A stretch of 21,413 nucleotides of DNA from a virus: the IMG/VR virus record IMGVR_UViG_3300049916_000766, positions 1 through 21,413 of that record, one strand, 5' to 3'. The position numbers and the translations under genes were made by a program. Below are positions 18,821 through 21,413 of the stretch, piece after piece. The notes beneath the pieces are model-generated. The model ran no database searches. It saw only the letters and a list, made by a program, of their open reading frames with translations, and was not told the DNA's origin. The stretch's first letter is position 1. Each line of letters opens with the position of its first letter.

Positions 18821-19408
18821 TTATAGAAACTTTTCTAAGCCACCAATGATTTTCTTTTTGGCGCGTTTCTTTTTAAGTTCTTTGCCGTATTCTTTTATCT
18901 TATTATCTCTTTCACGGATTTGTTGAGATTTGTATCTTACTCTATCTACAATACCATTCGGATCTGGATGGTCACCAATATCCATAAAGGCACTTGCACC
19001 CGCATGGTCTATGTATTTTTCTTTAATGTCTTGTTGCTTCTTTTCTTTTGCAATTCGACGTAAAAAAGCGTAGTAAGTTATTTGAGTGAAGTATGCAAAG
19101 GCATTAGGTAATCCGGTACGTGTTGCCTTTTTAACATCATAGTTCATAATCGCTTTAATGCAATTCTCAACTGCGTCCATTACCATTTCTTCTCTATATG
19201 TATAACCAACAAAGTTTGGTTTATGCGATAATCCTTCTGCTATTTTTAAAAAACAACTTCCAATATATTCAGTTATAATAGGTTCATCTTCTGATTTATC
19301 TCTAGCTTCATTTGCCGATGTTACGTAATCAACCACTGATTGCGAAAACAATTTGTTATTTACATAATGAGGTTTATCTCTTGGTTTTTTCTTAACTTCT
19401 TTTTTCAT
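18821..19408 (-). CDS. 55: Late-transcription sigma factor (gp55-like)
   Basis: The 195-residue product aligns with T4 gp55, the small sigma factor that directs host RNA polymerase to TATAAATA late promoters. Matching segments are HYVNNKLFSQSVVDYV near the start, IAEGLSHKPNFVGYTYREEMVMDAVENCIKAI (the region 2-like core) and NAFAYFTQITYYAFLRRIAKEKKQ. The start is set at 19408 rather than at an in-frame ATG at 19438, because the latter would lie upstream of the promoter -10 (19426-19421) and T4 gp55 begins near the same point. The leader is then only about six bases. Exact TATAAATA elements upstream of five genes here are its expected targets. Confidence 0.93.
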   Translation of the reverse strand: MKKEVKKKPRDKPHYVNNKLFSQSVVDYVTSANEARDKSEDEPIITEYIGSCFLKIAEGLSHKPNFVGYTYREEMVMDAVENCIKAIMNYDVKKATRTGLPNAFAYFTQITYYAFLRRIAKEKKQQDIKEKYIDHAGASAFMDIGDHPDPNGIVDRVRYKSQQIRERDNKIKEYGKELKKKRAKKKIIGGLEKFL

Positions 19409-19413
19409 TTTAT

Positions 19414-19449
19414 AGTATCCATTATATATTAAGTTCACTCACTTGTACA
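19414..19449 (-). promoter_or_regulatory. Early-type promoter for gp55
   Basis: TGTACA (19449-19444), 17 bases, CTTAATA and TATAAT (19426-19421) on the minus strand. The predicted start near 19414 is about six bases before the chosen ATG at 19408. It stands back to back with the rightward promoter at 19493. Confidence 0.75.
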
Positions 19450-19492
19450 CTAATAAAAGTGCAACTTAATATCATTATTATTCATTTTTCGG

Positions 19493-19528
19493 TGTACAAC
19501 TAGTCAATCTTTTGGTATAATAATTAAG
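19493..19528 (+). promoter_or_regulatory. Rightward copy of the early promoter (antisense)
   Basis: TGTACA (19493-19498), 17 bases, CTTTTGG and TATAAT (19516-19521) on the plus strand: the same element as the leftward promoters, in the opposite direction. The predicted start near 19528 would yield RNA antisense to the Sm-like gene and then uvsW. AAGGGAG follows at 19541-19547, but no ATG, GTG or TTG lies at a suitable distance. Confidence 0.6.
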
Positions 19529-19552
19529 TACAAACAAAGAAAAGGGAGTTAC

Positions 19553-20065
19553 TCACTTATTACCTTTATGTTTCTTTCTCCACTCCATGTGGATATCTGT
19601 AACAGGACTAAAGTCTTCGGAATGATTCATCCCGTTATCAACCTTCCAACTTTCTTCTTCCTCTTCTTCATCTGTAAAATCATGATTATCAACTGGAGGA
19701 TTAAACATTTGATCTATTACATCTTTCATATCGCTAGGTGATAATACATCATTTAATTTCTGCATAATAAAATAGCGGTGGTAATGTAACTTAAGGGCGA
19801 AATTAGTTGGCGTAAGACCTATGACCTTATCTCCACAAACTTGAATTAGCTCATCATCGTCAGAGTCGAGCCACTCGCGCAAATAGCTTTTTTGTGTGTT
19901 ATCATCGAACTCCAATTGTAAAGCTCCTGCTAAATATAGAATATTGTTTTCTACATCCCTATCGCACTCTTCTGCTATTAAGTATGTTCCGTCAACTAAA
20001 CGATAACTTATAATGTCAACTTCGCTTAGGTATTTCTTTAAATCTTCTGATGGTTTATAACTCAT
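19553..20065 (-). CDS. Sm-like-fold phage protein
   Basis: The first ~100 residues of this 170-residue protein have the pattern of an Sm/LSm-type barrel: VDIISYRLVDGTYLIAEECDRD, then NNILYLAGALQLEF, LREWL, and KVIGLTPTNFALKLHYHRYF. A structurally solved Sm-like protein attributed to a cyanophage has this kind of layout as I recall it, so RNA binding or a ring assembly is conceivable but unproven. The C-terminal third is acidic (DFTDEEEEEESW) and probably unstructured. The ATG overlaps the uvsW stop by four bases (ATGA), so the two genes are coupled. A rightward promoter downstream would generate antisense RNA through this gene. Confidence 0.55.
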   Translation of the reverse strand: MSYKPSEDLKKYLSEVDIISYRLVDGTYLIAEECDRDVENNILYLAGALQLEFDDNTQKSYLREWLDSDDDELIQVCGDKVIGLTPTNFALKLHYHRYFIMQKLNDVLSPSDMKDVIDQMFNPPVDNHDFTDEEEEEESWKVDNGMNHSEDFSPVTDIHMEWRKKHKGNK

Positions 20066-21413
20066 AATGGCACCTCGCTTATTTTGTAGTTAAATTTTTC
20101 TTTAGCGTATATTTTAACCCGTGTAATCGCGTGATTCAAAGTGTAATTCTTACGTTTTTTCCATGACAAATCATCTGCTAAATCGTAAATAGTTGTTCCT
20201 TGTCCATCTTCTGTTTTTCTTAATCCTCTTCCGATAGATTGTAGAACTCTTATTTGTGATTTTGTAGGTGAAGCAAACATTATATTGTGCAGGTTAATTA
20301 TATTTATACCTGTCGAAAAGGTTCCAACGCTCGCAACGATAATTGCGTTCTTTTCTTTTTCAGTGATCTCGCGGATCCTTTCTCGTTCTTCAGCGTTAAC
20401 AGCGCCTGACACAAAGAACACTTTACGATCTGTACCTTTACATTTTTCTACAAACATCTCGTATAAAGGTTTACCATGTTTCTGAACAAGATTATACAGC
20501 ACAAGCGAGTTCCCTTGCTGATCGCACGTAAGGTTGACTATAAACCTATTCCTTTTTTCATGACTTACTATATGATCTATTTCGTCTTGGTACTTTAATC
20601 CCTTACATAGCTTTCTTTCTTCGTCAGAATATTTTAACACTAAGCATTGTACTGTTAGCTGCGCCAGTGTGTTAGAATCGATTAACTCCTTAGTGCTAGT
20701 AACTTTATACACCGGACCAAAATTGCCTTCTAATGTCATTTGGTTTGACACTGCATCATCAATAGTCCCGGTGGTTCCTATACGCATATAAGCTTCGCTC
20801 AATCGATTCATAATCGTGGTCAATGACTTTGCTTTAAACGTATGAGCTTCATCCCCTATCACAAATCCGTATTGCTTAAACCAACTTTGCGGTAGTCGTA
20901 TTGCGCTTTGCCATGTAGTTATAACAACCGATTGTTCGAAATCTAATTTTTCTTTACCAGAATAAATTCTATGAACATCTTCTTCTACGTCAAAAGTATC
21001 ATCACCATCTGAGTAATCCGCAAAATCTTTGTACATTTGCTCAACCAACGATGTAGTAGGAACAACAACCAACGCTCTAAAGTCTACGTCGTTTTCAAGA
21101 AAGTAGCGCAATAGCATGTAAATAATTAAAGATTTGCCAGAGCCAGTAGGAGAAATTAAAATGCATCTACTATTCTGCGCTGCATGTATAAATGCATCTA
21201 ACTGGTAATCTCTTGGATCAATCTTTTTTCCGTTAATGTTAATAGACAAACTATTAATAAACGTTTCTAAATCTTCTTTTTCATCAACTGGATTTTTGAG
21301 TGTGTCATCTATCTTTAATTCGTATCCACGCTCATAACAAAATTCAGCAACACGTTTTAGTAAACCATAAGGTAAAGTTTGAGATCTTGAATCGAATAAG
21401 CGTATCTTACCAT
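20062..21413 (-). CDS. uvsW: UvsW helicase (5' part cut by right edge)
   Basis: The frame is open from the right edge. A TTG at 21249 is internal, because upstream residues GKIRLFDSRSQTLPYGLLKR and FCYERGYELKI align with the N-terminal domain of T4 UvsW. The superfamily 2 helicase motifs follow: motif I SPTGSGKSLI, Ia VVVPTTSLVEQM, II GDEAHTF, III TGTIDD, V-like ASVGTFSTGINI and VI QSIGRGLRK. In T4, UvsW unwinds R-loops and branched recombination intermediates, moving replication from origin to recombination initiation. About 50 N-terminal residues are missing compared with T4. It lies upstream of the Sm-like gene and gp55 in the same direction. Confidence 0.95.
   Translation of the reverse strand, partial: GKIRLFDSRSQTLPYGLLKRVAEFCYERGYELKIDDTLKNPVDEKEDLETFINSLSININGKKIDPRDYQLDAFIHAAQNSRCILISPTGSGKSLIIYMLLRYFLENDVDFRALVVVPTTSLVEQMYKDFADYSDGDDTFDVEEDVHRIYSGKEKLDFEQSVVITTWQSAIRLPQSWFKQYGFVIGDEAHTFKAKSLTTIMNRLSEAYMRIGTTGTIDDAVSNQMTLEGNFGPVYKVTSTKELIDSNTLAQLTVQCLVLKYSDEERKLCKGLKYQDEIDHIVSHEKRNRFIVNLTCDQQGNSLVLYNLVQKHGKPLYEMFVEKCKGTDRKVFFVSGAVNAEERERIREITEKEKNAIIVASVGTFSTGINIINLHNIMFASPTKSQIRVLQSIGRGLRKTEDGQGTTIYDLADDLSWKKRKNYTLNHAITRVKIYAKEKFNYKISEVPL

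Follow-up and report, generated by a model that had tools for sequence, protein, structure and literature searches.

Downstream of the uvsW-X gene pair lies a sequence with the features of an early-type (sigma-70) promoter, which points back into both genes and is conserved across the Kyanoviridae examined. It is anchored to the end of gene X and leads into no conserved coding or structured product. Our preferred reading, to which we give a probability of about 0.5, is that early antisense transcription from this promoter represses uvsW-X in cis until late transcription; we infer the transcription, its timing and the repression of uvsW-X from the sequence.

The promoter was found in a window of 21,413 nucleotides, which is the whole stretch of DNA analysed (IMG/VR record IMGVR_UViG_3300049916_000766); the features around it are listed in Table 1. 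On the plus strand it reads TGTACA-ACTAGTCAATCTTTTGG-TATAAT, with a TGn extension preceding the -10 box, and both hexamers as well as the 17-bp spacing are those of the phage's own sense promoters. The first-pass annotation had described it as the only full early promoter match on the plus strand, and indeed no second perfect TGTACA-N17-TATAAT was found on this strand in the whole window; the other five perfect copies all precede leftward genes, on the minus strand. Its location just past the Sm-like stop and back to back with the gp55 promoter was also described correctly: the stop codon of X (19553-19555) lies 31 nt beyond the end of the -10 box. The two -35 boxes are separated by 43 bases (19450-19492) and not by 45 as given there. 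The promoter is located opposite X and the predicted transcript overlaps X, as expected for a cis-antisense RNA, and the discriminator and transcript start (19522-19552) show no start codon near the predicted start site. Promoter matches with up to two mismatches are more frequent in the window than expected (12 versus 4.2), and none of 100 shuffles reached 12. For the antisense promoter itself, the decisive evidence that it is more than a chance match is its conservation.

Table 1. Features at the uvsW-X/gp55 junction of the window
Feature	Coordinates	Strand	Remarks
Antisense promoter	19493..19521	+	-35 TGTACA 19493-19498, 17-bp spacer, -10 TATAAT 19516-19521; conserved in relatives
Inferred transcription start	19526..19528	+	about 7 nt after the -10 box; from sigma-70 promoter geometry
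Discriminator and predicted antisense transcript start (AATTAAGTACAAACAAAGAAAAGGGAGTTAC)	19522..19552	+	conserved in close relatives only
Gene X, Sm-like protein, 170 aa	19553..20065	-	target of the predicted antisense transcript; overlaps the uvsW stop
uvsW-like helicase, cut off by the window edge	20062..21411	-	second gene beneath the predicted antisense transcript
gp55 early-type promoter	19421..19449	-	back to back with the antisense promoter
Late sigma factor gp55, 195 aa counted from ATG at 19408	18821..19408	-	

To the left of X the window carries gp55, followed by gp47 and gp46. We place the start of gp55 at the ATG; the mechanically assigned GTG start at 19438 falls inside the gp55 promoter. 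Six leftward early promoters, including those of gp55, DNA polymerase and the sliding clamp (-35 starts at 156, 3398, 5911, 10551, 11627 and 19449, minus strand), are followed by an ATG just 6-12 nt beyond the -10 box; the mRNAs made from them should thus be almost leaderless. The window also contains three consecutive tRNA genes on the minus strand (444-516, 525-597 and 787-858).

The label Sm-like for gene X, proposed in the first-pass annotation, is confirmed by its homologues and by the modelled fold. Cyanophage homologues of X match the Pfam family Sm_like PF16243 (Syn9 1e-42, S-PM2 1e-10, P-SSM2 3e-8), and the predicted structure of the window's X (mean pLDDT 77, core above 90) matches the Sm/LSm-like protein 3BY7 with a TM score of 0.85 by target length. 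The Pfam search with the window's X alone gave no match, nor did a single-sequence search against the PDB; profile and fold searches were required. The homologues in S-PM2, P-SSM2, Syn9 and P-HM2 carry the annotation "methylamine utilization", which looks wrong since the sequence is an Sm-like domain of the PF16243 family.

Conservation was determined for 122 non-redundant loci, comprising IMG/VR contigs, gathered using X, gp55, and X from cyanophages and a pelagiphage, and the phages S-PM2, P-SSM2 and Syn9 (cultured cyanophages), HTVC008M (a pelagiphage) and C48C1. As controls we used 179 other gene 3' ends in the same loci and shuffled stretches. The first-pass annotation had held that loss of the element in close relatives that keep the leftward promoter would refute it; instead, a promoter with at least 11 of 12 hexamer matches and a 17-bp spacer, located 10-65 nt past the X stop, is kept in 108 of the 122 loci compared to 1 of the 179 controls, figures to be read as effect sizes, because the loci are mutually related and the numbers overstate the statistical weight when taken as independent trials. 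With at least 10 of 12 matches at the same distance, the numbers are 116 of 122 loci and 4 of 179 control ends. If placement is handled more loosely (11-12 of 12 matches, 17-bp spacer), the promoter is present in 88.5% of the loci, in 2.0% of the shuffles and in 1.7% of the 179 control ends; by the same scoring, a sense promoter is found less often on the gp55 side (76%). A total of 57 perfect antisense promoters occur in the 819 kb covered by these loci, and 53 of them are located at the 3' end of X. The promoter reads TTGACA-17-TACAAT in S-PM2 and P-SSM2, TTGACA-17-TAGAAT in Syn9, TTGACA-17-TATAAT in HTVC008M and TTGACG-17-TATAAT in C48C1, and P-HM2 has a weaker form (TTGACA-17-TACACT). In close relatives the element is intact, and the spacer and flanks vary. 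That the promoter is a lone one, as first described, is true for the window and for most contigs, and in the whole genome of Syn9 there is no other antisense site of this class. Far from being peculiar to this phage, the promoter is a feature of the family.

One small clade (L021, L031, L037 and L038) has no recognisable promoter at the usual place and has kept both X and uvsW. Thus, as far as the sequence allows it to be recognised, the promoter is not absolutely required. These four loci represent a natural deletion experiment. In another locus (L150), the antisense promoter and its leader are present in two tandem copies downstream of X. Further antisense early-type promoters were observed in HTVC008M (NC_020484, at 19462 and 23571), in C48C1 (OQ984149, at 12459) and near the 3' end of uvsY in one contig (L054). 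All of them sit within or at the ends of late genes, and in some of these phages the late regions may carry antisense early promoters more generally.

The pattern of variation is that of a promoter. Within groups of related loci, identity is 0.88-1.0 in the -10 box and 0.79-1.0 in the -35 box, and drops to 0.41-0.64 in the spacer; the predicted transcript start drifts in most groups while the hexamers are nearly invariant. In 88 of 90 loci, the -35 box is of the same type (TGTACA/TTTACA or TTGACA) as in the sense promoter found there, which is expected if one polymerase reads both. The distance of the -10 box to the X stop varies with a standard deviation of only 5.4 nt, compared to 20.6 nt for the distance to gp55. 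Ten loci have an additional gene between X and gp55, and in these the promoter has not stayed with the gp55 promoter, as a bidirectional gp55 promoter would, but remains 24-44 nt from X. Both observations show that the promoter belongs to X; it goes with the downstream end of uvsW-X and did not arise as a side product of the gp55 promoter.

Downstream of the promoter, no conserved coding or structured product was identified. No conserved antisense ORF was found in the loci of the relatives, where the longest ORF has a median length of 23 amino acids and stops occur in all frames. Downstream of the promoter in the window, the only sizeable plus-strand ORF (19568-19741, 57 amino acids) is not conserved, in line with the earlier statement that no convincing rightward gene starts here. 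A conserved antisense intrinsic terminator was not found either (13 of 106 loci, scattered). With RNAalifold, four groups yielded no consensus structure; z scores for the folding of single sequences were only -0.15 to -1.0, an Rfam search returned tRNAs only and no match for the antisense RNA, and synonymous constraint is not raised in the overlapped 3' end of X. The leader is wholly different between groups, with group-specific 5' sequences kept among close relatives. Because ORF, terminator, structure, Rfam match and synonymous constraint are all lacking, selection appears to act on transcription against X and uvsW and not on the sequence of the RNA, which points to an effect in cis. In several cyanophage loci (L097, L096, L098, L022 and others), short group-specific dyads surround the antisense start site (AACTCT-GTA-AGGGTT, ACCCTT-TGT-AAGGGT, AGGCA-TG-TGCCT and ATTCT-T-AGAAT); these are possible operators.

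The genomic context suggests what such an effect might be for. In Syn9, P-SSM2, S-PM2 and P-HM2, uvsW-X end a late block of gp23, gp3, uvsY, uvsW and X, and in C48C1 they close the corresponding block; gp55 opens the next block with an early-type promoter. In P-SSM2, late-type ATAAATA motifs are located 22-31 nt before gp3 and before small genes that precede uvsW; in C48C1, such motifs precede the tail-tube gene. On the basis of these motifs and of T4, uvsW-X are presumably late genes in these phages as well. In T4, UvsW is the product of a late promoter and unwinds the R-loops at replication origins that start early replication (PMC3016281), and its presence early in infection can thus be expected to do harm. 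Since cyanophages have neither motA nor asiA (PMC2984593), timing must come from elsewhere. We propose that the early sigma-70 promoter, placed about 30 nt beyond the X stop, drives transcription against the coding strand and yields a non-coding RNA that is complementary first to X and further on to uvsW. Convergent early transcription together with the antisense RNA would hold down uvsW-X in cis, and the pair, read from late promoters upstream, would be released once gp55-dependent late transcription takes over. This would keep UvsW out of early infection and spare the R-loops that start early replication; blocking of late read-through into gp55 might be an added effect. Action in cis is most likely since the RNA's own sequence is under no visible selection. 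Of the roles suggested in the first-pass annotation for a promoter facing the Sm-like gene and uvsW, a promoter that here proves conserved and apparently non-coding, control of the Sm-like/uvsW RNA is therefore the most likely one.

The best surviving alternative, although an unlikely one, is that the promoter serves as an insulator. A convergent promoter would stop transcription of the late head genes and of uvsW-X from running on into gp55 and other early genes, either because polymerases collide or through the antisense RNA, and would thereby substitute for a terminator. Such a function is consistent with the location of the promoter at the boundary between late and early genes, where it closes the late block even if a gene is inserted, and with the finding of a sense-strand intrinsic terminator after X in only 3 of 122 loci (shuffles 1.0). 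However, insulation alone needs no fixed spacing of 23-50 nt to the X stop. In addition, gp55 is located downstream on the same strand and late read-through would seem harmless, and P-HM2 apparently has, as judged by eye, a terminator-like hairpin on the sense strand in addition to the promoter. Interference with read-through into gp55, as suggested earlier, is thus weakened as the main role, since the promoter stays at X when a gene intervenes, and is kept here as this insulator function.

It seems improbable that the product is a small regulatory RNA bound by the neighbouring Sm-like protein, acting in trans or on its own mRNA. The promoter always adjoins the Sm-like gene, and the group-specific 5' sequences shared by close relatives would fit such an RNA. 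A trans-acting Hfq/Sm-dependent sRNA should have a conserved sequence or structure and a terminator, but the scattered terminators, the missing consensus structure, the unconstrained end of X and a leader that changes completely between groups do not support this proposal of the first-pass annotation. A broader version, which we consider a long shot, is that the Sm-like gene and the antisense promoter work together as a single regulatory unit: the Sm-like ring would bind the transcript and/or the duplex it forms with the uvsW-X mRNA, and the unit would be a family-wide RNA-based timer setting when UvsW ends origin-dependent replication.

We regard it as quite improbable that the transcript primes early replication at an R-loop origin that UvsW later unwinds. 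The model is oriF (uvsY) of T4, where a non-late promoter near uvsW likewise directs a transcript towards the uvsW 3' end. Most early T4 synthesis begins within late regions (PMC3016281). Many leaders, although not all, are G-rich 10-25 nt after the -10 box; several groups lack this stretch. The T4 transcript codes for uvsY and primes an origin, whereas the transcript predicted here carries no gene, and no sign of an origin emerged: four complete genomes showed no consistent GC-skew extremum at the site, which is a weak test in genomes as one-stranded as these. A promoter for a small rightward protein is very improbable, since SD-like purine stretches in several leaders are outweighed by the short antisense ORFs with stops in all frames, several loci reading ATG-stop; a rightward gene was rejected for want of a conserved ORF. 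Chance or a side effect of a bidirectional gp55 promoter has next to no probability, for while promoter-like matches are common in AT-rich DNA and the promoters are back to back in most loci, the controls and the ten loci with separated promoters refute it as an explanation of the conservation.

Antisense RNAs are already known in phages. The OOP RNA of lambda, which is short and ends at a terminator, lies antisense to the 3' end of cII and acts in the lysis/lysogeny switch. As with OOP, a phage-encoded promoter is aimed here at the 3' end of a regulated gene; in contrast to OOP, we see neither a terminator nor a discrete RNA, and the genes targeted are a late pair for recombination and RNA binding. 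A second case is CfrI, a measured antisense RNA of about 225 nt at the psbA 3' end of cyanophage S-PM2 (PMC2984593), which, as predicted for the RNA at uvsW-X, covers the 3' end of a gene in a T4-like phage, here a cyanophage. CfrI belongs to another locus and is linked to psbA and a homing endonuclease, whereas the uvsW-X element is family-wide and known from its promoter alone. In the open-access papers searched, we found no account of an antisense RNA at uvsW/gp55; the Syn9 transcriptome (doi 10.1038/ismej.2015.210) lies outside that scope. What sets the uvsW-X case apart is the depth of its conservation.

The presence of the promoter in nearly every family member examined suggests that these phages deliberately make antisense RNA at the uvsW-X end. 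A non-coding element that is kept in nearly all examined members while the surrounding sequence diverged is unlikely to be idle. It places a phage Sm-like protein beside a predicted antisense transcript and, in a family of abundant marine T4-like phages, is a concrete candidate for timing the switch to late expression and recombination-dependent replication.
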